This document shows, piece after piece, positions 34,479-63,816 of a stretch of 64,000 bases of DNA. The stretch is from the NCBI GenBank assembly GCA_013180625.2, contig SNVD02013943.1, positions 558,001 to 622,000 on the forward strand, written 5' to 3'. Numbering within the stretch: position 1 is the first letter of the stretch; every line of letters begins with the position of its first letter. This DNA comes from Boswellia sacra. Taxonomy: Eukaryota; Streptophyta; Magnoliopsida; Sapindales; Burseraceae. The position numbers and the translations under genes were made by a program. Below the pieces are notes generated by a model. That model had not been told where the DNA came from and searched no databases. It was given only the letters and a program-made list of their open reading frames with translations.

Positions 34479-34690
34479 CATATTATTATTATAAATTATT
34501 TATACAAATTTATTTATATAAATTGATATAATATGATATGATTTGATAAATAAATATATTGAATAAATAAATATATGATGTTAATATATAATATTAATTA
34601 AAAAAATAATATGGTAATCATATAATAAAGTTTTATTAATTTATATTGATAAATTTATATAAATAATTTGTAAAAGTAGTACATCTCTTA
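34479..34690. mobile_element. Family A MITE
   Basis: Inverted ends: left TAAATTATTTATACAAATTT and right, in reverse, ACAAATTATTTATATAAATT, each about 40 bp. The centre is AT-rich and no ORF is present. The ends relate to those at 1-115, 36775 and 62290. Confidence 0.6.
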
Positions 34691-35459: not shown

Positions 35460-35467
35460 GTATCAAT

Positions 35468-36508: not shown

Positions 36509-36774
36509 GTGTCAATGTTAGTTTATGAGACATTTTGATTGTTGTAACTTAACCAAACCTTAGGGGTGTCGGTTGAAGTCCCTGATTATAGTTGATAGGC
36601 AACTTTCATTAAGAGGCTTTAATAACAAATTAAATATACTTCTTAATTGAAAATACAGAAAATGGAAAAAGAAAGTACTTCTATTAATTGGTTGATTGAT
36701 AGCTACTTTAAATTAATACAATTTAATAAATATAATTCAAATTAAATACACCACTTAATCTTAAAAACAAATAG

Positions 36775-39640: not shown

Positions 39641-39649
39641 GGGCGGGTT

Positions 39650-40564
39650 AGTAAGCAAGTAAAGTACTTTTGAGCTCAGCTCCAGAACCAAGTAAGCACA
39701 AGCGTACAAATAAATCTATTCTTCTCTTTCTCGCCCTTCTTTATTCTTCCTTTCTTTGTTTGTTTGTGTTTCTGTTCTAAAGTTTTCTACTTTATTTTGT
39801 GTGATTAAGGTTTCATTATAAGGGGCTCTTTCTCTTTCTCGATTTTGTAAAGCTCTCATTTTCATTTTGGATCATTCTTCTCAAGAAAGTTTGTGGATCG
39901 ATCGTTTCCTTCAGGTAATTCTATCCATTACTTTTCTTGGAGTTTTGCTTTCACTCAAATGACTTGTTATAGTGTTCTCTTAGTTTGGTCATGTGGAAAA
40001 TATGTGTTAATGGGATCTGGGTAGTCTGTTTTCGGTGTTTTGATTCAAGAGATGTTTTCTTGATTCCCATGTTCTTGTAAAATGATAAATTTTGTGCAGC
40101 CTTTGTCGTTGTTATTTTACTCTCTCCTTCAAGCTGTTTTTTATTTTTATTTTTTGGGTTTATTCATTCTTTTTGTAGCTTTTCATGGAATTACACGGCA
40201 TTAAAAAGAAAAATGAAGATTGTTGTGGAAGTTGCATGGAAAGGGGCGGGCTTGATTATTCTTATTGTTGTAATTCAGGGACTAATTAAAGATTTTAGTT
40301 CTTTTCTGGATGAGGGATCTGTTTGGTTTTCATTTTGTTGAATTGGTTTGATTGCCTACTTCAGATTGTAGGTTTTTTTATTTTTTATGGTTTTTGAATT
40401 GTAGAGCGCCAGCAGTGCCAGTGTTCTCTGTTAATAGTTTCCTTTCTTCATTTCTACTTATCTGGAAGTTTGTTAAACTGGTGCTGTAGCGTGCTACTTA
40501 TCTAATTTCTTGTACCTGATTCTTGTAAAGTTGGACTGTAATTTGGCAATCTGAAAGATTATAT
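39650..40564 (+). other. 5' leader and leader intron of the DUF688 gene
   Basis: A CT-rich leader exon likely ends at 39914 (CTTCAG|GTAATT). A plausible acceptor is GAATTGTAG|AGCG (exon from 40405). From 40405 to 40564 there is no upstream ATG. The exact transcription start is unknown. Confidence 0.45.
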
Positions 40565-42961
40565 ATGTTATTAAAGAATTTGATGGAAGACAAGCAACTG
40601 GATTTTAATCAGCCACTTCTATCTGTAAGACGGTTCTCATCACCAGTTACTACCTCGGAAGCTAAGGTTAATAGGAAAACTGATAATGCAGTTCCCAAAT
40701 TACCACCTCTTCCTTCTTATAAATCAGAGTTGAAATCGGGTCCGATCAGGAATCCTGGAACTGTTCCTTTTCTGTGGGAGCAAACCCCAGGAAAGCCAAA
40801 GGATGAAAGCAAATCACGAACTTGGGCTCTTGAACGGCCTCCTGTTGCCCCCAAGCTTCCGCCAGGACGAATGTTGAATGTTAAAAATCATGTTTTGGAC
40901 AAAGTCTCTGAAGGCACAAATAGTAGAGGGTCCAAGACAGCAAATGTCCTTAGCAGTTCTCAAAGTTTTTCTTCTTCCGACAAGAATTCAACCAAACGTG
41001 AGAGCTCCATAGAGGGGATGGAGGATACAGAAGGCTCTAGCACTGAGGATGCTGATGAGGCTTTTGTAGATGCACTTGATACTCTTTCTCGGAGTGAATC
41101 ATTTTTCTTGAACTGTAGTGTAAGTGGTGTGAGTGGGTTGGATGACGCAGAAGCGAAACCATCAGGAATTTTCTCAGCTGATCCGCAGGCCCGGGATTTC
41201 ATGATGGGTCGATTTTTGCCTGCAGCACAGGCAATGGCTTCAGAAGTGCCTCAACATACAAGTAGAAAGCAACCTGTAGTGCAAGAGCAGCCAAGACACT
41301 TTCAGAAGATAGTCAATATGGATAAGCGACATCCACCTAAACAATACAGTTCAAACAATTTACATTTTCACGCCCAAGATAAGAGGTGGGAGGAAAGTGA
41401 TGATGAAGATTATTATGATGGACATGAAAACTCATCAGCTACAGTTTGTGGGTTATTTCCTCGACTTTGCTTGAAAAGTTCTTTTTGCCTTCTGAATCCA
41501 GTGCCTGGCATGAGACTGCAGGATCGGGGAGCAAATGCTTTGGATCGTAGAGCGTGGGCCAGGAGTTCATATCCTAGTTCTTGCAGTGACCCTGAAAATG
41601 AGGTATCAAATTTATCTTACCCTGTACTAACCACCATTATTATGTTTTCCTGTACAGTTTATCTCCATTTTTAAGGAACTGTTGTTGAATATTAGCATCA
41701 TTTTAAACAGAACGTTAGAGATACAGTACATGGGCAAAGTTCAACAGTTGGATGCCAGACAGCAGGGATGCGAGAAAATAACCTTGGGCTGAAAAGTGAA
41801 GCCAACCAAGTAACTCGTGGAAGTAAATGTCACAAATTGGATGGGTCATCTCCGCACAGGCACTTGCAGGGTGATGTTGTGTCACCCAACAAAAGTCAAA
41901 ATTGCCAGTCTGACTCCAGTAATGAGAATATGTTCCTCGAGATTCCTGAAAATGCTAAGAACTTTAAGGTTAATAGCAATGATCCACAGAGGAAAGGTAC
42001 CAAGAACTTCCGGGAACTAATGGCCTGTGAGAGCACTAAATGGGAATCAGGTTTAAAAGGTCCTGTTGAAAAAACTTTGTACATAGATTCTGTACATAAG
42101 TTGAAATCTCCAAGTTCCATTTCCAGTTCTTCAGATGCAAAGAGGCTAAGTGACAGCCAAGCAGAGGACTTCGATGTTCTTGTAAAATGCAAGGAAATGG
42201 AAGAGACAGCTTCAATAAAATCTTTAACTTGGGACAACAAGCACTTGAGTGTTGCAGACGAGAAGGCGATATTACAACCTATAGTTCTGGAGGCTATTGA
42301 TTCTGGAAATCTATCTTCACCTGACAGATCTTCCCAGGGAATGAAGATTGATGTAAAGAAGGGTTCCAGAGAGGACCAAGCGCTCACAAATGATTTGATT
42401 ACATTGACAAGCATAAAAGTGGCTGGCACTGGGAAGATTGATCTAGAAAGCCAACTGCATATGAAATTAAGTAATAAAAGAAGTCCTCATAGCCTCATCC
42501 AGGATTCTATTTCATCAACTCGCTTGAAAATGGGTGCTGATGGAAAAGTCAACTCAGACAGCCAACCACAAATGGTATTAAGTAGTCAAGAAGGGTCTCA
42601 GGGAAACCATTTACAATTTCCTTTTCCCCTGCCTCCACCAAAATCTCCATCAGACTCTTGGCTGAGGCGAACTCTGCCTACCGTGTCCACGAGGAATTCT
42701 TCTACATGGTCCTCTCTTGGTATGCATAATTGTACCAGAATTCAAGGTTCCAAGCCTCCCTCTGTTGATTCTAAGTGGGAAACCATTGTTAAAACTTCTA
42801 ATGTACAGCACGGACATGGACATTTGCGTTTCTCTGAGGTAATTTATATCTTTTCCTTTGTTGCTTATTTTTACCAGAGTGCAGATCAATTTATGTTCAC
42901 TTTACTCATTGGACAATTTCTGTAATCTCAGGAACTACTCACCCCTATACCAGAAACATAG
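40565..42961 (+). CDS. DUF688 family protein
   Basis: Three coding exons: 40565-41602, 41711-42838 and 42932-42961, for 731 aa in frame. Residues 67-79 hold the hallmark VPFLWEQTPGKPK. It is followed by RPPVAPKLPPGR, a Ser-rich stretch with an acidic patch (EDTEGSSTEDADEAF), a cysteine-containing block (VCGLFPRLCLKSSFCLLNPV) and a long low-complexity middle. The C-terminus HLRFSELLTPIPET is assembled over the last intron and matches the conserved end of the family (RFSELLxPIPE), which supports the model. The function of DUF688 proteins is not established; no enzyme motif or membrane segment is visible. Met1 is the first ATG after the leader, but Met7 (40583, MEDKQLDFNQPLL) is an equally good start. 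Confidence 0.88.
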
Positions 42962-44144
42962 AAGGATGGAAGCCTTGAGCCCATGGACTAGTGTATATGC
43001 TTGGTTGTTTGATGTCCATAAGTTTTATGGCTTTAAGGATTCTGAAAATACTTTTTCATCTTCTTTATAAGTCATCTTCTCCTCCAAGGTGCTTCATAAA
43101 AAGGGTAACTGTAAATCTACAAGCCCATTTTCATCCTGTAATGAGAAGCATTTAATCAATATATATATATACACACACACACACACGTATCTTGTAAATC
43201 TCTATTATTCCTCGAACTTAAGTTCGTTTGCTTTTATATTTTTTGAAGTTTTGATACATTTTCTTTTTAAAAAGAATCTTTGCAGTTGTATTACTTCTGC
43301 AATAACAGGATAAGAATTTTAGCTTTTCATGAACTTTCAATCCATATAATCATTGGATCTTTGCCTGGCCAAGATGATTGTTTTCTGAACATTCTTCCTG
43401 AGATGTTTCATTTGCCATGTGAGGCTGACCTGAGCTTTTTGAACCCTTTTATTTCTTCATTCTTTGCGCTGACATAGGCGTGACAGTTACACTGGGTAAA
43501 TTATGCCGAGGTTTACACAAATTCAGGTCAATACACGAATAAAATCACATTTATGAATCACTAAGAGAAATTAACTCGTGCGAATGGATGTAATAGCAGA
43601 TGAACGAGAAAGTAATAACTAAAAGGGCATTATGCAAATAAAATTAAATATAACAAATTTAACACCTCATTAAGCAAATCTATGAAATAGTTTCAGGTCG
43701 ATAACAAATTTAAGACCTCTCATTCATATTAATTTTAGAGTATTTAAGATATGAAAAATGAAAATACCATCTCATTAAAAATCATGTGAAATTCTGTCTC
43801 ATTTTATAACTTGTAGGTCGCAATGCATTCACATCTTTCTAAGCCAAAATGAGTTTAGGGTGAAAAGGTTTTAAGATATTTTCAAGAATAGATTATCGGA
43901 TCAGAGAAGGCCAACGTTACACCAGAAGAGCATGCGGCTATTAACCAGTTTCTTGGGTCTCAAGGGTTTGAACATCTGCTTGCCCGGAACTGGTCCAAAA
44001 GTGAAGGACCCTTATATTAATTTATCTATATTTTAATTAGCTCTTTATAAATAAAATTAAATTTTTGATAAGTTTTTTTATTGCTCAGTGCATATAACAC
44101 TTTTCATACAATGGACTCTGCCAATACAATTATAATTATAAATA
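42962..44144. other. 3' flank of DUF688 gene; no gene beyond a possible orphan exon
   Basis: The first few hundred bases are probably 3' UTR. An (AT)n(AC)n microsatellite lies at about 43158-43187. A possible orphan exon at 43892-44020 is listed separately. Confidence 0.45.
43892..44020 (+). pseudogene. Orphan coding-like fragment
   Basis: A 42-codon open stretch ends in TAA and reads like real protein: ...SEKANVTPEEHAAINQFLG, then SQGFEHLLARNWSKSEG. It stands out from the AT-rich flanks in base composition. It has no start codon and no partner exon nearby. I do not recognise the family. It may be a gene remnant or a captured exon. Confidence 0.4.
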
Positions 44145-44760
44145 GGGTCAATTCCACTCATATCCCTTGAGGTTTAGTGAAATTTCATGGAAAATCCTGT
44201 GGACTTATGGACTCATGGTTCTAAAAATTTTATAAACTTCCAATCTTAGTTAGAAGACTGTTAAAAATTCTGTTAAATAGAAATACATTTTTTAAATTAT
44301 CCATAATTGACTACTAAAACACATTCAAAATTATAAAAATTCAAAAATAAAAAAATAAAAATAAAACCCAAAACTTACCATTAGTCATCTATTAAACACT
44401 ACCCAAAAGTCTTACAAAAAAATATTATTAAAAAATTATACATAAACTTAAAATAACTTTTTTTATTAAATAAACATTTTTACGTTAAAATAAATTATAA
44501 AAATATTGAAATAATTAAAAATTTATTGCATGTGCGGCTGCCAAAAATTATCTTATAAAATTTAATTTCTTAACTTTGATTTTTGGATTTTTTGAAATTT
44601 AAATATTTTTAATAGCCAACCATACAAGCAATTTGGAAAAATATACATTTTTAACTGAAAATTTTAACAATTTTAATGGTTTTAAGAGATTTCTGAGAAT
44701 CACAGAATTTAATATAAGATTTCGATCAACCTCAAAAAAAGAAGTGTGCAGAATTGAGGC
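44145..44760. mobile_element. Family C Mutator-like TIR element
   Basis: Left end GGGTCAATTCCACTC then CCCTTGAGGTTTAG; right end in reverse GCCTCAATTCTGCACAC then TTTGAGGTTGATC. Matches the layout of 10543-11347 without its nested insert. The target duplication is weak. No coding capacity. Confidence 0.5.
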
Positions 44761-45598
44761 TTATAATTCTATTCTATGTTTCATGAAACATTATCAGGAG
44801 CTCGAGATAGTTTCAATTTTAAGCTCATCATTCGCTCTGACGACTCCTAATGTCGATAAGATTAAGGTTGAAAGATAACATTAATGACAACCTAGATATT
44901 TTAGGATCACTTCCACCGTACGATCTATCTAGGTCATTTTCGCATCATTTTCAGCGAGGGACACCCGGAATTTGACTCTTCTCCCTTTCTTCCCTGACGA
45001 TGCAGTTGCTTCAACGAATCCAACTTCCAATTTCCATGAAATTTCTTCTTTCAACTATTTGGCTTAATACGCGTAAGAATTGTCGACAAATCCGTATCCG
45101 CCACTATTTCGCATTCAACGCAATTTTATTTACAAGGTTGAATGGATTGGATCTACTTATGTGATACAGAATAAAAGTAGTAATATGATATACAACTTAA
45201 GACTTTTTTATTTTTAACGTAAATTTTTGATATAATTTATTGATATTATGATATTTGATTTTATAAAATCTAATGATTAAAATTAAAAAATAAAAAATTA
45301 TATTTAATATTATTAATTTATTAATTATTTTAATTACTGAATCTTATGAATTAATATTTATAAATTTATGTTTAATTTAATTTTAAAAAATTTGCATCTA
45401 AAATTCTTTCCCTAAATTCTTTCCCTGCTTTTAAACTTTATTGCCTTGGGCCAATGAGATAGCGCCTAGATAAGACTGTTTGTTAACAAATAGTTAGGCA
45501 AAGATTTTTTATAACCTGATTAACTGAATTTACTAGAAAAGACTCTTCTTTCCCATTTAGATTTGAGTTTTCTATATATCCTGATTAGCTGAATTTAC

Positions 45599-45606
45599 TA
45601 TAAATA
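45599..45606 (+). promoter_or_regulatory. TATA box of the glycine-rich gene
   Basis: TATAAATA lies 170 bp before the ATG at 45776. It sits at the end of a 21-bp direct repeat (CCTGATTAxCTGAATTTACT), present at about 45516 and again at 45580, so the box adjoins a local promoter duplication. Confidence 0.55.
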
Positions 45607-45775
45607 GCGGTGATGATCATCACTGTTATACGTTTTCCATACTGCACTAAACTATTATTTTTCCCGGAAAATATTTTCTCTTCTCGTTTTTCCCTTCCTT
45701 CCCTATCCATTTCTTTATCTATATCTATAATTTACTGCAGGCTTCGTGTAGAAGGAGAGATAGCTAGCTAGAAAA

Positions 45776-46054
45776 ATGGCGAGAGAGTTACTGGTTCTTG
45801 AGGGTGGTGGCCATGCAGGAAGCAACTTTTCTGGGCTTTTTCTGCTTTGTGCCGTTGTTGCATCCTTCTTAATGATATCAATGGTCATATTCGCTTGTGG
45901 GGATGGCGACTCCAACTCCAAGAAAAGTCGATATGGTGGGGGAGGAGGTGGTGGAGGATGTGGTGGAGGAGGTTGTGGAGGGGGAGGTGGTGGAGGATGT
46001 GGAGGAGGAGGTGGTGGAGGAGGTTGTGGAGGGGGAGGTGGTGGTGGTTGTTGA
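45776..46054 (+). CDS. Small hydrophobic glycine/cysteine-rich protein
   Basis: 92 aa in one exon. A short N-terminus (MARELLVLEGGGHAGSN) is followed by a hydrophobic segment at about 18-41 (LFLLCAVVASFLMISMVIFA), which may act as a signal anchor or membrane helix. Then come a charged stretch (GDGDSNSKKSRY) and a tail of almost pure Gly interrupted by single Cys residues, ending in Cys. Plant proteins of this kind are often cell-wall or membrane-surface glycine-rich proteins, but no function can be assigned. A paralog lies at 63556-63816. The GGN-codon run could vary by slippage. The start is the first ATG after the TATA box in this frame. Confidence 0.75.
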   Translation: MARELLVLEGGGHAGSNFSGLFLLCAVVASFLMISMVIFACGDGDSNSKKSRYGGGGGGGGCGGGGCGGGGGGGCGGGGGGGGCGGGGGGGC

Positions 46055-46305
46055 ATGAAGTCAACGTAATTCTTCTTGTTGTCGCTTGGCGGGCTGTTGT
46101 TGGCTTTCGCTTTATTTAATGTTATCCATGTCTCTGTTACGAATTAGATGTATATTTACTTGTATCTTTTGAATGTAATAATTGCAATATTAGGTTGTAA
46201 TAGAAATTTGAAATAGAAATTGAATTATAGTTTCGGCAAAAGCAGAGTTGTTTTTTACCAACATATTCATTTCATTTTTCCAACTTCAACTTTCTGAAAC
46301 TTTTA
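46055..46305. other. 3' flank of the glycine-rich gene
   Basis: Likely 3' UTR; several AATAA/TGTAATA-type motifs occur at 46155-46205. No other feature. Confidence 0.4.
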
Positions 46306-47883
46306 GGCTGTGTTCGTTTTCGTACTACACCCAATATTTTTCGTTTTCAATTTATCGAAATTCGAGAGATTTTTGTTTGTTTTTGTTTCCCATTTTCATT
46401 TTCATAAAACAAGATCATTTCCGTTTTTACCCCTAATTTTACCTGTGGATATATGTACAGTTCGCTCCCCACTTAGATTTCAAATGTAATTCCAATTCTC
46501 TCTCTTCATTTTCTGTAGCAAAAATCGTCTTTACTTTGTATGCTTTCATCCGGACCACATCTCTTTCTTCCGCTCTCAAGCTGATCTCTTTCTTCTTCCA
46601 CATCATCGCAAAGCTCTTTCAAAACCTCATCATCCACAAAACAAGCATGCAACAAAAACATCTAAAAATGAGGCTACCAAATCGTTACCACAACAACAAA
46701 AACCCAAAACCCAAGCCAACGTATAGCCACTATACGCATGTCGGTTTTGATTTTATGTTGCCCCTTTATCACCTTGCCTCTCACCATCACCATCAAGATT
46801 GGAACCCTAACGTTAGAGGCTATCAGCAAAGTAATTGGTGAAAGTATAATTTATAAGAGAGATGAACCAAGGATGACAGAGCAGAAATTAGCAAAAGAAA
46901 TTGAAACGGAAGTGTGAGGATCAACAAGAAAGAGAGAATAAATGGGTGGAGAAAGAAAAACAGTTGCTTCAAAGTTATGATCTCACCCATTTCATCTTTT
47001 TTTGTGAACATGGGTTTCGATGAGAGAGAAAGAAATGGTTGAGGAAAGAAAATCAGTTGGAGCCAAAGCTGGACATGGAAGTAGAAGAGTTGGCTTACTA
47101 GTTTTTTGGATTTTGCATACATGGGTCTAGCGAGAAAGAGAGAGAGAGAAATTGGTGAAGAAAGGGAGAAGAAACGGGTGAAGAAGGAAAATTGTTGGAG
47201 CCAAAGCCAGACAACGGAAGTGGACCGGTGGAGGCTTTGTTGCTTTTTTGGTTTTTGTTTTACTTTCTATTTTATTATTATTTCTTTTCTATTAGTTTTT
47301 TTGGTTATTTTATTTCATTAATTATAATGCTCATTATTACGATGTTGTTGGAGAAGACAAAAGATGTAAACATGCGATTAGCACACGAAGTGGTCAAATT
47401 GCCCTTACATTGTTAACTGTTAGTATACATGTGATTAGCACACGAAGCCATTATTACAATGTTTTTGATAAGAGTAAGCTGTTGTTGGGTTTTAGCATTG
47501 GGTCAGGTTCAAGTTTGTCAACAAATTAAAAAGTACATAACAAAAAGATGGGCATGTATTGTGATATTTGTTAATAATCATTTTATTTATACAATTTGTA
47601 AGAACTTATTTTTTGGATTCATTTCCAAATGCATTTTATGTTTTTGTTTTCAAAATGTGATGTTAATGATTCATTTCCAAACATATATCTTGTTTTCGTT
47701 TTCAAAATTTCAACCCAAGATTCATTTCCAAACACATATTCTAAATATAATTTTCAAATTAGCATTTTCAGAATTCATTTTCAAACGCATATCCCTTAGT
47801 TAAACTATTTTTTCTCCATCATAGAAATTCATTTTTCAAATTATTTTAGAAACAAAAACATATAATTCAAAAACAAACACACC
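46306..47883. mobile_element. Possible hAT-like non-autonomous element, 1.6 kb
   Basis: Left end AGGCTGTGTTCGTTTTCGTA and right end in reverse AGGTGTGTTTGTTTTTGAA form short imperfect inverted repeats of the common TGTGTTTGTTT type. Inside, the motif ATTCATTTCCAAACxCATAT recurs near 47618, 47670, 47722 and 47779. No clear 8-bp duplication was seen. The ORFs inside have no recognisable domains. Confidence 0.45.
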
Positions 47884-48362
47884 TTTAATTGCTTTCTTCC
47901 TTGCGCTAGTGAGAATTGTGATGTTGTCATGTGTGGATGATGGCACATGACAGGTACACGGATCCTAGTTGACTTGAATTGATACAAACCTAATAAGTTG
48001 TCCATACATTTTTTCGCTTTGTTTATCCCTTATAGTATAGCAAATTGTTTTTTATTTTCTTAATTTTAATATTGTTTAGCCAAAGTTAAACATTGAAGAG
48101 ACGATTTCTTTACACACTTTTGTTAGTAGCTTAACTTGCCTAACATCCTACATGAAGATTTTTATCACTTAGTCTTCAGCTTGATTATGTAATAAAAAAA
48201 TTAAGAGTTTGTTGAACTAAAAAAAAAGCCTTTTTAGATTATTTAGTTGAGAGTTTATGCATAATTTATTTAACACACACACACACACACATATGTAAGT
48301 ATTCTCGACACTAATTTTCTAAATTCTTAAACCTCTTTCTTTTAGGAAAAAATTTATTTAAC

Positions 48363-48775
48363 AAAACCTATATTAATCATTAATGGTAATATAGAAATTT
48401 TGGGTTGAATTTTAAGTTATAATAAATCCTTGAAAAACATTTAACTTAAACCTATATCGACCATTAACGGTAATCAGCGGCGGAGCCAAGGACCTGGCAG
48501 TTGGAGGGGCCAGTGGTGAAAAATAAAAATTAAGAAGAGTGGCTAGAAGAAGCAACACTTGGAGGGGGGCCAAATGATATAAATACAAATATTAATCACC
48601 ATATTTAAAAATTATAAACTTTTCTATATAAAATTTTTTAAAAAAATTTGGGCTAGGGAGGCCAGGGCCCTTCCACAGCAAAGCATAGCTCCGCCCCTGA
48701 TGGTAATGTAGAAATTCTATGTTGACTCTTAAGTTATAATAAATCTTTGAATAACATTTAACTTAAATTGTGTTA
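48363..48775. repeat. 110-bp direct repeat, second copy split by a MITE
   Basis: Copy 1 (about 48366-48450) reads CCTATATTAATCATTAATGG ... TTTAACTTAAA. Copy 2 starts at 48451 with CCTATATCGACCATTAACGG, is broken at 48474 and resumes at about 48700 with GGTAATGTAGAAATTCTATG. The duplication is therefore older than the MITE insertion. Confidence 0.75.
48475..48699. mobile_element. hAT MITE, 225 bp, with 8-bp TSD
   Basis: Left end CAGCGGCGGAGCCAAGG; right end in reverse CAGGGGCGGAGCTATG. Flanks ACGGTAAT (48467-48474) and ATGGTAAT (48700-48707) give an 8-bp duplication with one change. Copy 1 of the host repeat shows the empty site. The CAGxGGCGGAGC terminus is common in plant MITEs. Confidence 0.85.
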
Positions 48776-48859
48776 TTAGGATCATTTTCTTTAAACAGAA
48801 TGTGTTGTTATTGAGAAATACTTATGTACACCAAGTTAATACAAGAAAAATGATCATAT

Positions 48860-49125
48860 TTGGTAGTCTTTGACCGCCAAATAGATCATATTTGACGGTC
48901 TTAAAAGCGCCACCAATGGCACCGCTAAATATAGTCAATTTGACTATATTTGACGGTTAGTCAAAGTGCCAAATATGTATTTGACTATACTTGGCGGTCA
49001 AAGACCGTCAAGTATAATAAGTTTAAAAATTAAAAAAATATATACTTGGCAGTTTTTGACCGCCAAGTATAATAGTTTCAAAAATTAAAAAATATACTTG
49101 GCAGTTTTTAACCGCCAAGTATTTC
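48860..49125. repeat. CACTA subterminal repeat array
   Basis: At least six copies, in both orientations, of a short motif close to ACTTGGCGGTC: for example TTTGACCGCCAAAT, TTTGACGGTC and TTGGCGGTCAAAGACCGTCA. Several form perfect or near-perfect palindromes. The right end has a GACTTTTTTAA...CCGCCAAATAA copy near 56078-56105. In CACTA elements such repeats are the TnpA-type binding sites. Confidence 0.75.
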
Positions 49126-49193
49126 AAAAAAATTAATATATATATATAAAATAGGTATTTTATAAAATTTAGGAAATTCATAATCTTTATCAT

Positions 49194-49582
49194 TTGTCAC
49201 ATTAAATAAATTTCTCATAAAACTCCTCAGTTCCCAATAAAAGTAAAATAAGATAACAATTTTAGAATGTTAAATAAACTTTTTTGTAATAAATTAGCAA
49301 CACAATATTTGCCATTATGACAAATTAGGTATTGCAACTAGTGGTAAAGATAATTTGCAATTCAGAGGTAACCAGATTAAAAACATTTTGTCACATTAAA
49401 TAAATTTCTCATAAAACTCCTCAGTTCCCAATAAAAGTAAAATAAGATAACAATTTTAGAATGTTAAATAAACTTTTTTGTAATAAATTAGCAACACAAT
49501 ATTTGCCATTATGACAAATCAGGTATTGCAACTAGTGGTAAAGATAATTTGCAATTCAGAGGTAACCAGATTAAAACCATGA
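49194..49582. repeat. 194-bp tandem duplication in the CACTA element
   Basis: The block starting TTGTCACATTAAATAAATTT and ending GGTAACCAGATTAAAA occurs twice with a 194-bp period (49194 and 49388) and only one or two differences. It is much younger than the captured fragments. Confidence 0.9.
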
Positions 49583-49816
49583 ATAAGTACATGAGATTTC
49601 ATACCTAATTCCATTAGAGGGAAACTCTGATACAAACATAAATGAGTAAGAAAAATGATAAATAAAGCATTACTGTCACATAAATTTCCTAGATAATCTA
49701 TGCTTAAAAACTGTGATTATTCACAACAAACTTTAGTAACTTGTACTTTTTTGCCTCACAGATAGCTGCATGATATATGCTTGAGAAGAAAATTATTTCA
49801 CTGGTCCATGATCTAC

Positions 49817-49950
49817 AGGAGAACATTAAAGTGAATCATCAACTCATTGAGACATAAAACAATATAGGAGAACATTAAAGTGAATCATCAACTCATTGAG
49901 ACATAAAACAAGATAGGAGAACATTAAAGTGAATCATCAAGTTGAGCATT
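49817..49950. repeat. 49-bp tandem repeat, nearly three copies
   Basis: Copies begin AGGAGAACATTAAAGTGAAT at 49817, 49866 and 49915. They are almost identical; the third is cut short after ATCATCAA. A further duplicated segment (GTAAGAAGCATTTCTGTCCA) occurs at about 50034 and 50107. Confidence 0.9.
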
Positions 49951-50410
49951 CACTGCAACAAATTTTTCATAGTGAGAAACACCAAAATTTTTAGCATCAT
50001 TCTTGGCAATAAAACATTGCATGTGGACGTGGAGTAAGAAGCATTTCTGTCCATATTAAAATTAAAAAGACTAATTCTGAAGTGCATGATTTTAAGAACT
50101 CAGAAGTAAGAAGCATTTCTGTCCATATTAAAATTCATGCATGAATTTTTATATATGTGACAACTTAACATCCTCTAGTTCATAAACTCAAACAAAAAGA
50201 CAAGACATCAAATGAATTCAAAGAATAAGGCAAGATCTCTGACTAACAAATTAATCAGGTAAATAATTTGTTCTTCAATTTCGTAGGAGGTGTGGGACAC
50301 TGAAAACAAGATCAAGATCAAGCTCTATGATGTACCAACAATATAATTTCATTGCTTTGAAACAAATGGTGTTAACAAAAAAATTACTTTGAAAGTTCTC
50401 AAGGTGGTAC

Positions 50411-50878
50411 CAGCACATCTGTTCATTTGCGTTCAATTTTGCCCTAACAAGTTCAATTTCATTGCCTGAAAAATAGTTGCAAAATTGTCAAATTATGCGC
50501 AAGTGTTATATGCAGAAAAATTCAAAAATTGAGTTTCTTACCACGAAGCTTTTTTTCCAGTTCCACTTCATAGCACTGTATCTAATGGATCTGCTTAATC
50601 ATAGGAAACATAGCAGATAAGAGGCTGTACAGATATTGCAACTTCTCTAGGACAGGTATTTCCCGTATCCTTACCTGCATCTCAGTCAAAAATATATTAA
50701 TAACATGACCATACCTCTTTTAAAATCAAAACCATATCAAATAAAACTGTTATTTCCCTTTAATCCAGGAATAAATACCTTTATCATATTGTCCCCACGT
50801 AAGCATGCCTTGCAATTACAAATGCCACGACATGCAGGACAGATCTTCTCAATTTCTTCTGATGAGATATCTGAGTAC
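50411..50878 (-). pseudogene. Captured JMJ25/IBM1-like histone demethylase fragment
   Basis: Three exon pieces in order: 50878-50779 (RYSDISSEEIEKICPACRG then NCKACLRGDNMIK), 50674-50542 (VRIREIPVLEKLQYLYSLLS ... EVELEKKLRG) and 50465-50411 (NEIELVRAKLNANEQMC). They match the Cys-rich (zf-4CXXC_R1-like) region and linker of plant JmjC H3K9 demethylases, upstream of the JmjC domain. Introns and GT/AG sites persist. Exon two has an in-frame TAG where the family has Gln. The catalytic domain is absent, so no enzyme activity is possible. Family assignment is from memory of conserved motifs. Confidence 0.7.
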
Positions 50879-51654
50879 CTGACAAATGAAGCATAAATAC
50901 TCAATATTCTTGTGCATTCACAAAAAAGGTGTCTGCCTAAAACTCAACCTCACCATGTTGAGATACAGCTATCAAGATAGTCATGAGATCATTTGTTTTG
51001 ACAACCAAGATAACATCACATCTCACATATTTGAAAGTTTAGAGCCCCTGATCAGTACTGCAAATCAAAAATAAAAAACAAGAGAAAGATCAACACAGAC
51101 AAAAGCTAGACTGTGAGAGGCCAAGAACACTGTCCCCATGTATGTAAAGTAACCATATACTCCATCCAGGCAAGTTAACCAAATCTAAATTATTTCTCAG
51201 CAAGGTCTTCAATTTACTTTAATTTATTTGTTCAATTTGATTTAATCGATAAATTTAATCAATTCACTCCATTGAAGCCCACCACTTATTTCAATTAGTA
51301 GTTCCATTTTACTCAAATAGTACTATATTTAGAGAAGCCAAACCCATATAGATTTACTGGATGAATTTCAATCATTTTCATTGATTGTTTCTAATTTTCA
51401 GCCAATAATTCTTTTTTCCAACAAAATCCAATAACACAAAATGTGAAATTAACCAAGTTCAAGAAACCCAAGTAATCAAAAGCTCAAAGTAAAACAAAAG
51501 ACATAGTACCAACTCCAAAAGTCAACATAATATCAAATTTTTTTCACAAATGATTCTCAACTTTATAAAAGTTTTATGCACCTCCAAATTAATTGAGTTT
51601 TCTTGTAGTGAATAGTAACAAGGTGTTTATAAATGATTATGAGATAGGCATCAC

Positions 51655-53340
51655 CATTTGATGGTTTCATAGTTACAGCAGCTTGAAGATGTGATCCTAC
51701 AACTGTCTCAACAGGGAAATTTTGCAGCATAACCATAGATGATGGAATGGAAACTTCAATAACAACCTATCAGAAATACTTATAGAGGTTAACAGAAGAG
51801 TAGCCATATAGGGTGCAAAACATCCAGACAGATCTCTACATTAGAACTTGATGCATTAATGGCTAAAAGAGCTTCAACACCACAAAAGATGTTACCTCCA
51901 TTGTCAAATTTATCAATTGTGCAAAAACATAACTACCTATGAAGCACTAAGAATTATTGTATATCAACCCAACAAGTTTCAATTCAAGCTTACTTAAGCA
52001 GAATTCGTTAGTAGCAAAGTGATGAGTTTAAATGTCTCACATGATGAGCCAAAATGTATAATCGCACGTGAGGGGCCTGTTAAAGCTTAAATGCTATAGT
52101 TAAGGCCTTACCTATCAACTTAGACCTTTAGATCAGGTGGTTATTTAACATATATCTACTAGCACAACAACGTTACCTCATCATAATTGAATGAATAAAA
52201 AATAGACACCACTTTAGCAGTAGCTTTTCCAGGCTTCTTTGCCTGGACAACTCTAGAAGCAGATATGGATACAACAACCATGTCCAAAGAAAACCATTTG
52301 TAGTCACTGGATGTTTTTGCACAACCTATACAATTCAAATAACAAAACTCATCAGCATATTCAGATTTGAGTCATAATATTTATCTAACTGGGCAGGCAG
52401 AAAGCATCCAACCTCCAGTAGCTTCTTAGCTCCACTTCTTGGTAAATACCATGGGCCCATGGAAGAAGAATGCTTCGAGACAGGCCATTTGTTATTTCCA
52501 AACTAAACTTAACTCGATCACATACCATTATTTCTTGCACAACCTTGAGAACCTATGAGATAAAGATGATGCAGATTAAACTTAACTGTCTAGTATTTTT
52601 ATGGGAGTATTATAAGCATGAAAGACAACAAAATAATAATATAAAATAGAACTTATAACTAAAGATAAGAAAAGAAAAAGAGCTAAAGCAAAGTTACATC
52701 TTTTGTATTCGGATGCCCAGTAAAATATGTTAAAGAAGCCATTAATTTTCCCAGTCCCCGTGAAGTTGCTTTCAGGATTCTAGAATTTTGACAGCCATGC
52801 ATTAGCACAACATCGTCTGACACCGAGAAAGTTTCCCAGTATTTAGACCGGTTGTCAAATAGTTTAACATCATCAGTCTGAAATGCAAGGAAAGAACTTC
52901 TTAGTCAATATGAGAAAGTAGTGAGAATCTAAAGCCAGCATCATAAACCACATTTGTAAATAATATATTCCTAGCAAACCACAAATGTATTACCTCTGTA
53001 ATATAAATTTCCTGTGCACCATGTCCCTGTGATAGAACTTTAATTTGAATTAGTTATTGATGGCCAGAAATGATAAACCACCATGCCACAGACGGAATGG
53101 CTTTTGTTCCTTCAATGGGATCACCAGAAATAGACAAAGGTGACATATACAAACATAAAGTGTCAGGTAGGACCACATTAAGTGTGGACACTTGAATATG
53201 GCCAGCAACTCTGGTATCTTCAACAATGACAGATGTTTCCCCTAAGGTTAGAGCATGTGTTAAGCCCATCATACTATCCACCTGAGCAACTGAAGGGTTT
53301 GAAACAGACCAGCGGTGATGCAGTGATGGCAGAGTAACCA
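51655..53340 (-). pseudogene. Captured nuclear-pore gp210 (NUP210) fragment
   Basis: Five exon pieces: 53340-52994, 52877-52698, 52552-52413, 52325-52177 and 51766-51655. Segments such as RWSVSNPSVAQVDSMMGLTH, SVIVEDTRVAGHIQVSTLNV, ASRVVQAKKPGKATAKVV and SSMVMLQNFPVETVVGSHLQ are typical of plant gp210, the large membrane nucleoporin of the nuclear pore ring. Order and splice sites are preserved. Breaks: TAA replaces a Tyr codon in the first piece, and a small frameshift lies near the end of the third piece (about 52430). This is an internal part only, without signal peptide or membrane helix. The intact donor gene must lie elsewhere in the genome. Confidence 0.82.
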
Positions 53341-53681
53341 CTGCAAATGCCAATGAAAAACAAAGTGAGAAAATAGCAAACAATGCATCATAATATAGTT
53401 GGTACAAATAGTTTTATGATAAATAGATGACTCATGTAGAAAGTGAGTATTGATCATCCTCCCTATGTTCTGAGTGTGGCTTAAATCGAGAGCCGCATCA
53501 ACCTTCTAAACCGTTTAGGAAGCTGCAACCTTCAAGAGGTTCTAACTTTGCCATCATACTGGGTAATAGGGTAGAAAAGATGGATCCAAAGTCCCTGAAG
53601 AAAGTGAATAAAAAGACAAAGGCAGAAAAACCAAAAACAAAAACGAAATTAAAAAAAAAATTAACTTTCCAAGTCACACAC

Positions 53682-54107
53682 CCTGATTGCTCGGCTTGCA
53701 GTTTCTCAAGCTCTTCCCTTGCTTTACAAGGATCACGGGATGCAAAATCATAATCTGTACCACTTCTTCCAAAAAGTTGTTTCTCAGATGCAATCCAGGC
53801 ATGCTTCTCAATCAATTTTTTGACTTTTGAGGAGCAATCTTTCTGTTCCATCTCCATTCATTTTACCTGTCATAGAAATTGAATAATTTATTTTTAGTGT
53901 CTATAGTAGAAATGTGTATAAGATAATAAGCCAATTTACCTCATTTTCTAACTTCTTCCTCTCAAGTTTCATGTCACTGAGTTTATGTTGAAGTTTCTGC
54001 TGCTCCTTTACAATGCTACTAATTTAGGAATCACATTCCTTTATCTTTAAACGGATTGAATTGAGCTCAGATTGTGCCTGATCATGATTATTCCGTGTGA
54101 CAGCAAC
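53682..54107 (-). pseudogene. Captured SMC2 (condensin) fragment
   Basis: Two exon pieces, 54107-53940 and 53866-53682. They read like the hinge-side coiled coil of SMC2/CAP-E: RNNHDQAQSELNSIRLKIKE, EQQKLQHKLSDMKLERKKLE, EHAWIASEKQLFGRSGTDYD with K for the first E, and REELEKLQAEQSG. SMC2 is the ATPase subunit shared by condensins; the ATPase heads are absent here. In-frame stops: TAG at a Gln position in the first piece, and TGA at the start of the second. Both pieces keep GT/AG borders. They lie immediately upstream, in the transcription sense, of the gp210 pieces. Confidence 0.8.
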
Positions 54108-54112
54108 CTACA

Positions 54113-54915
54113 ACAGGAATATCTATTTACCTGGTTCCTATTTACCTGGAGTCAACATGCCTTCTACTTTTCAGACATTCACTCCCCTTGGAACAATGAA
54201 TGCTAGTTGGTAAGCCCCAGCTGTGATTGGAGGAGCAACTTCATCAAGCAACCAGCCCCAGATTCCTAATTTTTGTTATCCTGTTGGTTACCCCTATCCG
54301 GGCTTTCCAAGTAATTATACAACTCTAGTGGTTTGTAAGCTATGTATTTTTTTGTTTTTCGAAATTACTGTTAACATATTCAATTTTATTGTATCTTTAA
54401 CTTTTGGTTCAGATTAATTTTATCAGGTTATGATTGTACATATCAATGATATATAGATTACTGCAACTAGTTAGATATTTTGTATAGTTTCTTGTGTTAA
54501 CTGCATATAATATCAGTCACATAAAGTTGGAGCTCTTCTTGTTGACAGGCCCTTGGGATCCCTCTTCTTGGTGTGCCCTAGGTTAACAAACACAACTGCC
54601 CTGCACATATCCTAGCCAAGGAGGATATGGTTATGCTACTTCAATGCCTCAAGTGGCACTCGATTGCTCAGCATCCCTTGGACAATCCTCTCAAAGAGGA
54701 ATTATCAGGCCATTGTCAAAACTTTCTCAAAAGCATCAACAACTCTGGGAAGCTCAAGTATGAGTTCTTGTCTTAAACTTTTTCATTATGCTTGGAATTA
54801 TTTTATTTAGCTCATGGTTATGACTATGGCTATGCGGGTTTCTTTGGTTTTGAGGATGCAGTCTGCAGAGAATGCTCAGTTATGGAATGTTAAGGACTTA
54901 GTCAATGATGCTATA
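54113..54915 (+). pseudogene. Captured fragment of an unidentified gene, opposite strand
   Basis: Plus-strand coding-like pieces: about 54140-54320 (PSTFQTFTPLGTMNASW, stop, then SNQPQIPNFCYPVGYPYPGF), about 54550-54755 (GYGYATSMPQVALDCSASLG ... SKLSQKHQQLWEAQ) and about 54861-54900 (SAENAQLWNV). The last join uses CTCAA|GTATGAG and GATGCAG|TCTGC and restores a continuous helical-looking frame. Rich in Pro, Tyr, Ser and Gln. The donor gene is not recognised. It is a fourth source, since its strand and composition differ from the SMC2/gp210 block. Confidence 0.55.
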
Positions 54916-55230
54916 TATCTATGGATTGATTAGAAAGATATATCTTCAATTTCTATCAATTATTCAATAAAAAATTTCACTAGCCTGATCTGAATTCTAG
55001 CTAAATTACAAGTAGACCTCTTAGCTTCCAAATCTATCATTAACACTACCTTAAATAACGATATTTATCAGAAATCTCCACGAAATCACAACCTATTTTA
55101 TAAATCAAAATTAAATGAATCAAATTTACCCGACTATTAGAATTTGGTAAATTATTCAGATCCTATTAGTTTCCAAATTTACAACATTTATATCAACGAA
55201 ATCATAAAAATTAAACAAAAAATCAAGAAA

Positions 55231-55640
55231 TTAAATCAAAAGAGAGGAAGAGAGACAAACCTGAGTGAGAGTGACGGACAAGCAATCACGCCGGGCGAAG
55301 CTGGAGGACGATGAGAGGGTGTAGCCGTGGACCCTAGTGGCGAGTCGTGTGAAGACGAGGAGCGTGCAGCGCAGCCGTGGACCGTGGTGGCAACTCGAGA
55401 TGACAAAGGCGCTTGTGGTTGCAAGTGAACGAGGAAGGCAAAGGCCAAGCTTGAAGAGGGTCACATCCGAGTAAAGAGGTATAAGCTAGCCGACGATGGT
55501 GGAGTAGAACTAGGTCATAGACAGTGTCATGGTGGAGTGGCGACATGGACAGAAGAGATCCAGAGAGAAGGTGTTGACGTTGGTGGGTGGGTTAGGGATT
55601 TGAGATTGGGGTGTGAAGGCCTTGCGTTTTGGGAATGAAA
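55231..55640 (-). other. GC-rich leader exon of the CACTA element
   Basis: This is the only GC-rich part of the element. On the minus strand it ends CACTCTCACTCAG|GTTTGTCTC, a good splice donor at 55262. Overlapping ORFs are rich in Ser, Arg and His and show no domain. It probably serves as the first exon of a minus-strand transcript reading towards the SMC2, gp210 and JMJ25-like pieces. Confidence 0.45.
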
Positions 55641-56149
55641 GGAAGTAAAATATTTGCGTTTTGGACCAAAACGACACCGTATCCCCTTCTTTTTTAAATA
55701 TATTAACAAATTTAATTTCTTTCTTACTTATAATTTGTGCATTTAGATTTTAAATTTTAATAAATTTATATTTAACCATTAACTTATATTATTTAATTTT
55801 TTATTATTTATAATTTTTTAGCTAAAGATTTTAAATTCTAATGTATCTATATTTAACCATAAAATCATATTTTTGAATAAAATATTTATATTACTATTTT
55901 AATTTATTAATATTTATCTAAATAAAAAAATGAAATTGTTATAATTTTACATAGATTTTAGAATCCACATACTTGTCACAATTTAAAAACTGTGATAAAT
56001 ATGTGATTGAATAAAGACAAATAATGACAAATATAATAAATATGTGGGTTTGACTTCTAAACCAATCTTATACTTCTGACTTTTTTAAAAAAACCGCCAA
56101 ATAAAAAAAATGTAAAGTGACAAATATAAAAAATATTCTTGTAGTGAGT

Positions 56150-57826: not shown

Positions 57827-58279
57827 TTGGACCTTGGATGAGTCGTTTTGTATACGGATCCAAGGAGAATACGGATATTATATTCTAAGTGTTGAACCTT
57901 GGGTGGACCGTTCTGTATACGGACTCAAGGGGAACACGAATATAATGATATGGAGTGTTGGACCTTGGGTGGACCGTTCTGTATACGGACCCAAGGGGAA
58001 CACGAATATAATGATATGAAGTGTTGGACCTTGGGTGGACCGTTTTGTATACGGACCCAAGGGGAACACGAATATAATGATATGAAGTGTTGGACCTTGG
58101 GTGGACTGTTCTGTATACGGCCCAAAGGGAACACGAATATATTAATATGAGGTGTTGGACTTTGGGTGGACCGTTCTGTATACGGACCCAAGGGGAACAC
58201 GAATATTTCGATATGATGTGTCAGACCTTGGATGGGCCGTTCTGTATACGGATCCAAGGGGAATACGAACAGAAATTTC
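57827..58279. repeat. 66-bp tandem array, seven copies
   Basis: Copies start near 57827, 57892, 57958, 58024, 58090, 58155 and 58221. The unit carries TTGGACCTTGGGTGGACCG, TGTATACGGACCCAAGGGGA and ACACGAATATAATGATATG. GGACCTTGGGT and ACCCAAGG are near-inverted, so each unit can form a hairpin. The central copies are almost identical and the outer ones diverge. The period is a multiple of three, which keeps several frames open on both strands. Confidence 0.92.
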
Positions 58280-59218: not shown

Positions 59219-62065
59219 ATGTCATCCGCTTCCACTACATTTGAGGTGCCAAAATTTAACGGTTCCAATTACGCAGTATGAAAGTTAAAGATGCAAGCGG
59301 CTCTCGTAAAGGATGGATGTGCAATAGTTTGAAATGGAAAGGAGGCACAACCAAAGGAGATACAATTTTTGCAAAGAAAAGATGAATTGGCCATGGTAGG
59401 TCTTCATCTTGCACTAGATGAGATTGTTTTATTCAACATATCTAGATAAAGTACAACTAAAGGTCTGTAGGACAAATTATACTTTATGTATGAGGGAAAA
59501 TCCATGTCTAATATGATCTCTCTAATGAAGAAGCTTTATAACCTTAAAATAGAGGAATCGTCTTCTTTGCAACAACACTTGAATGAGTTTAATAACTTGA
59601 TTAGTAGATTGTAGCTATTGATATAAACATCGATGAAAAAGAAAGACTTATATAATGTTTTGCTGTTTGTCTGATTCGTGGGATCCCTTAGTGATGAACA
59701 TTAATAAAGCTATAGAACTCTCACTTATGAATATGTGGAATCTTTATTGTTGACTGAAGAGGCTCACTGAAAATCAAATGGTGGTTATTTCGCTGATGCA
59801 ATGATGGGACGAGATAGACTTACAGAAAGGACTGGTGGTAATAAATCCATATCTAAGATAAGGGACATGAAAAAAGGAAAGTATTGGAATATCGAAAGAC
59901 CGGGCCACATAAGAAAAGATTGTAAATTTAAAAAGGAAGAAGATTTCAAGCCTAATCTATATGCGTCAAAATCAAAGAATTCTCAAGTTGAATATAAATA
60001 TTCATATGAAGAGGGAGAGGTATTATCAGTTGTTCAGGAAGGTATGCAATATCATTTTAGATTCGATTGCTGTATTCCATATCTCACCACATTAAGATTG
60101 GTTTCATACTTATCGATCAAGTCGAGGGACTATTTATATCGGTGATAATACCACATGTAAAATAGTAGGGGTTGGAGATGTTTAAATAAAAATGTTTGAT
60201 AGTTCTACACATACTATTTTTGGTGCACGACATGTACCAGATCTTCGAAAAAGTCTTTGGTAATTGGAAAAGTTTAATCAAGACGAGTTCAAATTTTTTA
60301 GAGAAAATAGTAAAATGAAGATAGTCAAAAGAGCTCTAACAGTTGCAAAGGGAGAACTGATAGATGGTTTGCACTGTTTGATAAGAGAAACTGTAGTCGG
60401 TGAAGCTATAGTTCGTAACACTGTGTTAGATTTGACATCAATTTGGCATAGATGTTTAGGGCACATAAGTAAGTAAAGACTGAAACTACTCCCTGATAGA
60501 AATTTACTGACTAGACTAAAATCTATTAATTTAGATTTTTGTGAAGACTGTCTCTATGGAAAGCATCATAGAACAAGTTTCCCTTCATTCACTGCTAGAA
60601 GAAGGATGTTTTAGACTTGATACATTTTGATATTTGGGAAGCTCATGTTGCATCTATTGGAGTGCATAGTATTTTATCTCATTCATTGATGACTTCTTTA
60701 GAAAAGTGTGGGTGTATATGCTCAAAAGAAAGAATGAAGCTTTTGATTGTTTTATCAAGTTTAAGGCTTTGGTGGAAAATCAAAAAAGGGAGAAGATTAA
60801 GTGTATGAGAAGTGATAATGGAGGAGAGTATATCTTATCAGAGTTTAAGAAGTTTTGTAGTATACATGGCATAGTGAGACATCTAACAGCTCTAGAAACT
60901 CCACAAAAAAATGGAGTGGCCGAAAGGATGAATCATACACTCATAGATCATGCTAAAAGCATGTTGAGTTATGTTGGGCCGGAACAATACGTTTGGGCAG
61001 AAGTAGTATACATCACGTATTACTTGGTAAATCGTTCTCCCAGTATTGCATTGGATTACGAAATTCCTGAAGTAATATGGTCGAAGAAACCTGCCAATTA
61101 TTCACTCCTTCTGTATATTTGGTTGTGATCCTTATATTTGGATTCCTAAAAAGCATAGGATTAAGTTGGATCTAAGATTCAGAAAGTGTGTTTTTCTTGG
61201 CTACCCAGATGGAACAAAAAGATGCAGATTGTGGGACCTATTACTCATAAGGTCATTATTACTTGAGATGTTATATTTAATGAAGATTCAATGCAAAAGA
61301 AAGAGCAACTAAACTCATAAACAATAGAGATGGTAGAATTTGAAACTTTACATGAAGCTAAAGATCAACATGACCAACAAGTTGATAAAGCAGTTGATAA
61401 CTATGGTAATGATAATGAGCATGAAAAAAAAGAGGTTGATGAAACTCAAGGAAATGAAAGTCGGCCTATTAGAGATCGAAGATCCTTAGTTTGGCACAAA
61501 GACTCTGTCACCGCTTATCCTTGTATCACTGAAGAACATGAGCCTTGTTCATATCAAAAAACCTATGAATCTAAGGATGCTACTTAATGGAGAATGGCTA
61601 TGGAAGACGAGATGGAGGCTCTACACTAGAACAAAACTTGGGAATTCATTCAATTACCCATAGCAAGAAAGACTATTAGTTGTAAATGGGTTTATAAGCT
61701 CAAAAAAGATGCTAATGGGAATATTGAAAGATATAAAGCTCGGTTAGTGATAAAAGGCTATGATTAGGAATCCGGTATTGACTTCGATGAGATTTTTTCT
61801 CCTGTTATTTGTTTAAGTACTATTCATACTTTATTGAGTTTGGTAGCAGTACTTGATTTAGAACTTAAGTAGTTAGATGTCAAAACTGCTTTCTTGCATG
61901 GGAATCTTGAAGAAGAGATTTATATGACTCAACTGGAAAGCTTTATTGAACAAAATAAAGAGAATTTGGTTTGTAGGTTGACCAAATTGCTATATAGTTT
62001 AAAATAGCCCCTAGGTGTTGGTATAAGCGATTTGATTCTTTTAAAACTATTGATATATACTTGGG
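59219..62065 (+). pseudogene. Decayed Ty1/copia gag-pol
   Basis: Visible in order: gag start (59219, FEVPKFNGSNYAV), a damaged zinc knuckle (RPGHIRKDC, with early Cys positions lost), the pre-integrase region (WHRCLGHISK; CLYGKHHRTSF), integrase core (RSDNGGEY; ETPQKNGVAERMN), and reverse transcriptase (SCKWVYKLKKDANG; DVKTAFLHGNLEEEIY) fading out near 62065. There are many in-frame stops and several frameshifts. A number of stops sit at positions where the family has Gln or Trp, as expected from C-to-T decay of methylated DNA. The RT is cut before its end, and RNase H and the 3' LTR are missing. It cannot act on its own. Confidence 0.88.
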
Positions 62066-62289
62066 GTAAAGATAGCGAGAATTATGCATACAGATTGAAC
62101 AAATAATGAAATATAACCGTGTTTTCAAAGAGCTTAAGAGGATATGAATCTAGGTGGTCATTCGTTACAATGATTAGTGTCCAACAATTTGTATCCGTCC
62201 GTGGTGAACATGATGATGGTGAAAATATAAACAAAAGAGAAGATAGAAAGTTTTACTGGAAAAATCAGCTAAAAAAGTTAAGATTAAAA

Positions 62290-62478
62290 GGAGATGCTAT
62301 ACTTATACTAGTTATACAAGAAAGTCACTAATATAAACTATGTGATGTTATTATGTAAATATTACATCACTCATCTTAATTAGTATGTTGTATTATTAAT
62401 ATTTCTTTATTTAATTACATTATGTCATCAGTAAATTTATATAAAAAGTTTGTAAAATAGTATAATTCTTAAATTTAA
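62290..62478. mobile_element. Family A MITE, copy in duplication unit 1
   Basis: Left AGATGCTATACTTATACTAG and right in reverse GAATTATACTATTTTACAAA, with GATGTTATTATG and ATTATGTCAT inside each arm. Equivalent to the ends at 1-115 and 36775. A second copy lies at 62997-63185 and arose with the tandem duplication. Confidence 0.55.
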
Positions 62479-62996
62479 AATATATTAGGCTTTATTTAAT
62501 TGTCAACTTGATATCATGTGACTCTTTATTATCGGGCATGCTCACTACTTCAGCAAGATAGGGTGGTTGCTAATGTGGTGTACTTGTCTCATGCTCACGT
62601 AATAAGTATTTCTTGACGTTCTTCGTAAATAGAACGGGGTCGTTTCTCGAAACAAAATATTGACTAACCTGCTTGTTTCATTCTCCATGATGCAAAGTTC
62701 TTTTACGTAGTTTGGTAGAAAATTTGAGTTTTAAAGGATGTAGGAGTAGGACCAAGTAATTAATATATTCCCACACAAATGACAAAACACCTTAAGCTGC
62801 ACAACTTAGAATTTTATGCAACTTCAGAAATTATATTGAGGATGTGGTTCCGACGTACTATTGGTAGTTCCAACATAGTATTTGTGTCTAACAATTTGTA
62901 TCCATCCGCGGTGAACATGATAAGGGTGAAAATATAAACAAAAGAAAAGATAGAAAGTTTTACTAGAAAATTCAGCTAAAAAAGTTAAGATTAAAA

Positions 62997-63185
62997 GGAG
63001 ATGCTATACTTATACTAGTTATACAAGAAAGTCACTAATATAAACTCATGTGACGTTATTATGTAAATATTACATCACTCATCTTAATTAGTATATTGTA
63101 TTATTAATATTTCTTTATCTAATTACATTATGTCATGAGTAAATTTATATAAAAAGTTTGTAAAATAGTATTGTTCTTAAATTTA
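62997..63185. mobile_element. Family A MITE, copy in duplication unit 2
   Basis: Nearly identical to 62290-62478, offset by the 707-bp duplication period. It lies about 370-560 bp upstream of the second glycine-rich gene. Confidence 0.55.
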
Positions 63186-63555
63186 AAATATGTTAGGTTT
63201 TATTTAATTGTCAACTTGATATTCATGCTCACGTAATAAGTATTTCTTGATGTTCTTAGTAAATAGAATGGGGTCATTTCTCGAAACAAAATATTGACTA
63301 ACCTGCTTGTTTCATTCTCCGTGATGCAAAGTTCTTGTACGTAGTTTGGTAGAAAATTTGAGTTTTAAAGGATGTAGGAGTAGGACCAAGTAATTAATAT
63401 ATTCCCACACAAAAGACAAAACACCTTAAGCTACACAACTTAGAATTTTATGCAACTTCAGAAATTATATTGAGGATGTGGTTCCAACGTAGTATTGGTA
63501 GTTCGTGCATTAATCTCTAAATAAACTGCCTCACAGTTATTAATAGATATAGAAA

Positions 63556-63816
63556 ATGGCAAGAAAGTTATTGCTTCTTGATGGCGCTACTCATGTAAAA
63601 AGCAACTTTGGGGGGCTTTTTTTGCTTTGCATGGTTGTTGCATCCTTCTCAAGACCATCAATGGTCGTATTTGCTTGTAGTGATAGCAACTCTAAGAAAC
63701 ATTGTTATGGAGCAGGAGGAGCGGGAGGTGGAGATGGTACAAGTTGTCAAGGAGGTGGAGTTGGTATGTTAAGTTTACCACAAATTGAAACTAACATTAG
63801 TTTTATTTTTCAATAG
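63556..63816 (+). CDS. Paralog of the small glycine-rich protein
   Basis: 86 aa in one exon, aligned by eye with 45776-46054 over the N-terminal 50 residues: MARKLLLLDGATHVKSNFGG, then LFLLCMVVASFSRPSMVVFA, then CSDSNSKKHCYG. The hydrophobic segment is kept but contains SRP near its middle. The Gly tail is short (GAGGAGGGDGTSCQGGGVG) and continues into an unrelated end (MLSLPQIETNISFIFQ). That end may be read-through of a disrupted tail, or a GT donor (GGAGTTG|GTATGTTAAG) may hide an intron. Expression status is unknown. It lies directly after the 707-bp tandem duplication. Confidence 0.55.
   Translation: MARKLLLLDGATHVKSNFGGLFLLCMVVASFSRPSMVVFACSDSNSKKHCYGAGGAGGGDGTSCQGGGVGMLSLPQIETNISFIFQ

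Follow-up and report, generated by a model that had tools for sequence, protein, structure and literature searches.

How pieces of several unrelated host genes came to lie between a single pair of transposon ends is the question raised by a locus of Boswellia sacra contained in positions 558,001 to 622,000 of contig SNVD02013943.1 (assembly GCA_013180625.2); this whole stretch of 64,000 nucleotides is called the window in the following, and all coordinates refer to it. The candidate CACTA element extends from 48837 to 56146 of the window (7,310 bp) and is very probably a non-autonomous CACTA (En/Spm-type) transposon of the Pack-CACTA kind, in which host fragments with introns are located between CACTA ends and no transposase family was found in searches of limited sensitivity. 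An earlier note, made from the sequence alone, had described the locus as a multi-gene Pack-CACTA; this is still the best reading, and its SMC2 and gp210 components are backed, whereas the demethylase component is reduced to a zinc finger and the fourth gene is located on the opposite strand. Not included in that account is a third CACTA end, exact and internal to the element, which may preserve traces of the way the fragments came together.

Termini and target-site flanks

The ends were searched as 13-base sites with at most two mismatches over the whole window, which gave four left-type and eight right-type sites. The right border is formed by CACTACAAGAATA (56134..56146, minus strand), with one mismatch in 13 to CACTACAAGAAAA, and the left border by TAATACAAGAAAA (48837..48849, plus strand), with two mismatches in 13, both of which fall within the first three positions; in the CACTA terminal-repeat test CACTACAAG is found without mismatch on the right, and the left end is degraded. 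Past the first 13 bases the right end agrees with the left end at 9 of 15 positions, a level that is reached by 1.2% of the places in the window. The CACTA right terminus and the decayed left terminus of the earlier note are borne out by these sites, and the same is true for the AGT target-site duplication, whose copies are found at 48834..48836 and 56147..56149. In particular, among the 10 left/right pairs of sites located 0.3–20 kb apart, only the 48837/56146 pair has equal 3-bp flanks. The chance of equal flanks is 1 in 64 per pair, corresponding to about 0.16 expected among 10 pairs, and the AGT/AGT match is suggestive, being no proof when taken alone.

The two borders are also associated with a subterminal motif, ACCGCCAAATA, which was counted on both strands with at most two mismatches. 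Twelve matches, in both orientations, are grouped between 48857 and 49121, on the inner side of the left end and within 300 bp of it; over the corresponding 300 bp on the inner side of the right end, one exact copy is present (56093..56103, plus strand). No match at all occurs in 201 of the 213 tiles of 300 bp into which the window can be divided; the window-wide number is 23, of which the 12 at the left end are part, in comparison to 13.7 expected from shuffles, and only 1 of 100 shuffles reached 23. The left-right asymmetry of these repeats is genuine, and the subterminal repeats of the earlier note are dense at the left end and represented by a single exact copy at the right one. A scan of viral contigs for one subterminal repeat gave 0 matches.

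Host gene fragments

Four spliced models, with frames that are continuous except at a frameshift in gp210, agree with the claim that fragments of at least four host genes with exons and introns are carried by the element. Two of them, gp210/NUP210 and SMC2, had both been named before and are both backed by matches to proteins of the PDB. The gp210 model consists of five exons on the minus strand supported by PDB match and splice model: e1 (52994..53340, with one in-frame stop), e2 (52698..52877), e3 (52413..52552, with a frameshift near its end), e4 (52177..52325), and e5 (51655..51766). Its spliced translation covers residues 301-581 of the 1,916 residues of 9hcj ("Nucleoporin 210") with an expectation value (E) of 3.1e-09 for the whole match and 5e-07 for the best stretch, and e1 alone gives 7.6e-10 for the whole and 0.0081 for the best single stretch. 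The Pfam family Big_2 is matched above its cut-off (32.2 bits vs. 22.8), and the NUP210 Ig models of Pfam are matched only below their own cut-offs. When exon 1 was scanned against bacterial and archaeal genomes, none of the 39 pattern matches was confirmed as a relative, as is expected because the gene is a plant gene.

The SMC2 fragment comprises two exons on the minus strand, modelled in the same way, at 53940..54107 (one in-frame stop) and 53681..53866 (a stop close to its start), and corresponds to residues 867-974 of 9f5w ("Structural maintenance of chromosomes protein 2", 1,197 residues) with E 3.4e-08. A reading frame of 99 codons on the plus strand (53454-53750), located between the pieces of gp210 and SMC2, overlaps the 3' end of SMC2 in antisense; it may be a fifth captured fragment, and its first 69 residues (53454-53660) had no match in the PDB.

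The third fragment, here called JMJ25-like, has three exons on the minus strand: exon 1 (50779..50878), which encodes part of a zf-4CXXC_R1 zinc finger and is defined by Pfam and splice sites, and, from the splice model, exon 2 (50542..50674, one in-frame stop) and the truncated exon 3 (50413..50465). The Pfam score of zf-4CXXC_R1, 24.3 bits and in the spliced form 24.1 bits, exceeds the cut-off of 22.7 bits; judged from sequence similarity, this match identifies the fragment at family level only. Of the H3K9 demethylase of the earlier note, the zinc-finger piece is thus retained, whereas the JmjC domain has no Pfam match either in the fragment or in the read-through frames of the element and the gene name is presumptive. 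The best PDB match, 4u06 ("LIC10831", E 2.7e-04), is made of several weak stretches and is taken as a composition match; the zinc-finger residues compared with CDCA7 chains of the PDB gave doubtful matches (E 0.07-0.18).

The fourth gene is modelled on the plus strand as three exons from about 54138 to 54889, with GT/AG introns and a single frame: exon a (54138..54310, one in-frame stop), whose start was set by eye and is uncertain, exon b (54549..54757, one in-frame stop), and exon c (54862..54889), whose end was also set by eye and is uncertain. It has no match in Pfam and none in the PDB up to E 10. The collinearity on one strand that had been proposed for all the fragments consequently holds for the gp210, SMC2, and JMJ25-like pieces, all on the minus strand, and not for the fourth gene.

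The modelled host exons amount to 1,978 of the 7,310 bp. All nine modelled introns start with GT and end with AG in the reading direction, and the frame is continuous across eight of the nine exon joins, the exception being that between e3 and e4 of gp210 due to the frameshift in e3; the spliced models are read in frame 0 for SMC2, 1 for the JMJ25-like fragment, 1 for the fourth gene, and 2 for gp210 up to the frameshift. Because the exon edges were placed by eye at GT/AG sites, frame continuity is a stronger point than the GT/AG counts. The retention of introns with splice sites and frame indicates that the source was genomic DNA and not mRNA, and retro-capture is ruled out by the same introns with their splice sites. 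Six in-frame stops (two in SMC2, one in gp210, one in the JMJ25-like fragment, and two in the fourth gene) and the gp210 frameshift imply that host-like proteins cannot be made from the sequence as it stands; the fragments, if active at all, would serve as templates for chimeric or small RNA. The functional theme of chromosome and nuclear-envelope proteins seen in the earlier note was discarded, since it has no support past the gene list: each of the three named fragments covers only a short part of a long gene, and stops are present in all four.

On this anatomy, the element would have captured genomic, intron-bearing fragments of four host genes, and the 7.3-kb unit, whose structure is directly visible, would have moved as a single unit generating the AGT duplication. 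Six-frame Pfam scans of the element, with stops read through and E up to 0.1, found no transposase family; since no transposase domain was found inside, the enzyme would have to be supplied from another element.

The internal end and the origin of the multi-gene state

An exact copy of CACTACAAGAAAA is located at 51598..51610 on the minus strand, oriented as a right end, with AAT as its outer flank. It emerged from the same 13-base site search, and under a first-order Markov model only 0.00086 exact copies are expected in the element. The distance between this internal end and e5 of gp210 (from 51655) is 44 bp. Its AAT flank is unequal to the AGT of the left end, from which it differs by one base, and a simple element from 48837 to 51610 is disfavoured for this reason.

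Several points weigh against the Pack-CACTA reading and its parts. One equal-flank pair among 10 is expected by chance about once per seven tries, the left end is decayed at two of its first three bases, and sites similar to CACTACAAGAAAA (up to two mismatches) number 12 in the window vs. a shuffle mean of 4.26, indicating that some of them are background. In the 15 bases that follow its 13-base site, the internal end agrees with the left end at 8, a level also attained by 4% of the places in the window, and within 300 bp the right and the internal ends have one ACCGCCAAATA match each (exact at the right end, with two mismatches at the internal one). The transposase scans are insensitive and missed the zinc finger likewise; no SMC family was matched by the SMC2 fragment in Pfam, where the eight matches obtained were unrelated and all below cut-offs; and the resemblance of the zf-4CXXC_R1 fragment to plant JMJ25-type proteins is a presumed assignment. 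With these points taken into account, a Pack-CACTA is still regarded as very probable.

As for the route to the multi-gene state, a merger of two neighbouring Pack-CACTAs around the gp210 piece is tentatively favoured, with less than even confidence. A small Pack-CACTA carrying the JMJ25-like piece (48837-51610) would have been located in a gp210 intron, and a second Pack-CACTA, whose cargo was SMC2 and the fourth gene, would have been inserted close by in the same orientation. After loss of the left end of the second element, the outermost ends (48837 and 56146) would have mobilised the whole with the gp210 piece enclosed, and the right end of the first element would have been left inside. 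The merger accounts for the internal end beside gp210, for its orientation, and for its AAT flank; the flank difference is expected if AAT was generated by an earlier insertion and AGT by the most recent transposition.

Abortive gap repair is about as likely as the merger and equally tentative. According to this explanation, a single CACTA would have grown by template switching after excision, gaining the four genes, and the internal end would have been copied from another element. The 12-bp direct repeat CTATTTACCTGG, read from the sequence at the junction of SMC2 and the fourth gene (54123..54149, with copies at 54123-54134 and 54138-54149), resembles slippage, and the same holds for two tandem duplications found by repeat scans near the left end, one of 194 bp with 99% identity (49193..49580) and one of 49 bp in 2.5 copies (49817..49940). 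The fourth gene, opposite in strand to its neighbours, is also in favour of gap repair, whereas an extra accident is required to place an internal end next to gp210 in right-end orientation.

A nested arrangement, in which a CACTA of 2.77 kb (48837-51610), containing the JMJ25-like piece, was inserted later into or beside the CACTA ending at 56146, is unlikely. The exact end at 51598-51610 would delimit, together with the left end, a small Pack-CACTA 2,774 bp long, whose flanks (AGT/AAT) are unequal, in contrast to the equal AGT/AGT of the outer pair. Moreover, the enclosing element needs a left end upstream of 48837, where the two candidates, at 45914 and 46689, each have two mismatches and are flanked by TCC and TAC, respectively, which equal none of the tested right-end flanks, and zero subterminal motif matches are found from 34452 to 48856.

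The absence of any transposon, with pseudogene pieces joined by other rearrangements and CACTA-like ends arisen by chance, would agree with the decayed left end and with the frequency of CACTACAAG in the window (up to one mismatch), which is no higher than chance (10 observed vs. 12.2 expected), and is nevertheless highly improbable in view of the 13-base end found at each border, of the equal flanks, and of a common subterminal motif clustered inside the left border.

Surroundings and comparison with known CACTA elements

Judged by its genes, the window belongs to the nuclear genome of a flowering plant. Among these genes are an apparently full-length F-box gene (16386-18488, Pfam F-box_5), which we take to be MAX2-like and related to strigolactone signalling, and, elsewhere in the window, a DUF688 gene and a fragmented kinase gene. 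An Arg/Ser/Glu-rich reading frame (6304-7026) contains a 72-bp repeat in 4.6 copies and, at E up to 0.001, matches no Pfam family. No hits were obtained when the window was scanned for tRNAs and, at gathering scores, with Rfam. The comparison of the element with the remaining window by blastn (E up to 1e-3) gave only two short matches of 82 and 73 bp, 73–74% identical, from its AT-rich right part.

Directly to the left of the element (48383-48767), a 68-bp repeat occurs at 48383 and 48700 with 88% identity, and its copies are possibly the edges of another insertion. On the right, a tandem array of a 66-bp unit in 6.7 copies (57827-58269) is located near an integrase-core remnant (60670-61125), presumably Copia-like, and two pairs of duplicated blocks follow (62173-62518 vs. 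62880-63227, 94.5%; 62589-62870 vs. 63223-63504, 96.5%). An isolated CACTACAAGCAAA (63670-63682, minus strand) is included in a segment (63553-63765) with 72% similarity to 45773-45991; it was rejected as a further end of the element, with 3 of 15 positions matched to the left end past position 13 and no subterminal motif within 300 bp to either side.

CACTA elements carrying gene pieces are a source of exon shuffling in plants, and Pack-CACTA or Pack-TYPE elements occur in Arabidopsis and rice. In work on mobilised Pack-CACTAs of Arabidopsis, capture was reportedly proposed to proceed via insertions located close together as direct repeats, with one of the ends being lost. A multi-gene element with a leftover internal end could make the joining mechanism readable from the sequence and, if the merger is true, internal ends of the same orientation abutting host fragments would be a searchable signature of plant exon shuffling.

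The Pack-CACTA is a known kind of element, and the distinguishing feature of the one described here is its internal end. The likeness to the Pack-CACTA and Pack-TYPE elements concerns the non-autonomous state, the host fragments with introns, the 3-bp target duplication, and the CACTACAAGAAAA-type ends; in contrast, four genes and a leftover internal end are combined here in one element. Tgm-Express1 of soybean likewise belongs to the CACTA elements and contains pieces of several host genes unrelated to one another; these are not known to include the genes found here, and a mutant phenotype is known for Tgm-Express1 and not for the present element. The Tpn1 family of the Japanese morning glory is similar in that many of its members are non-autonomous and carry intron-bearing segments of host genes.

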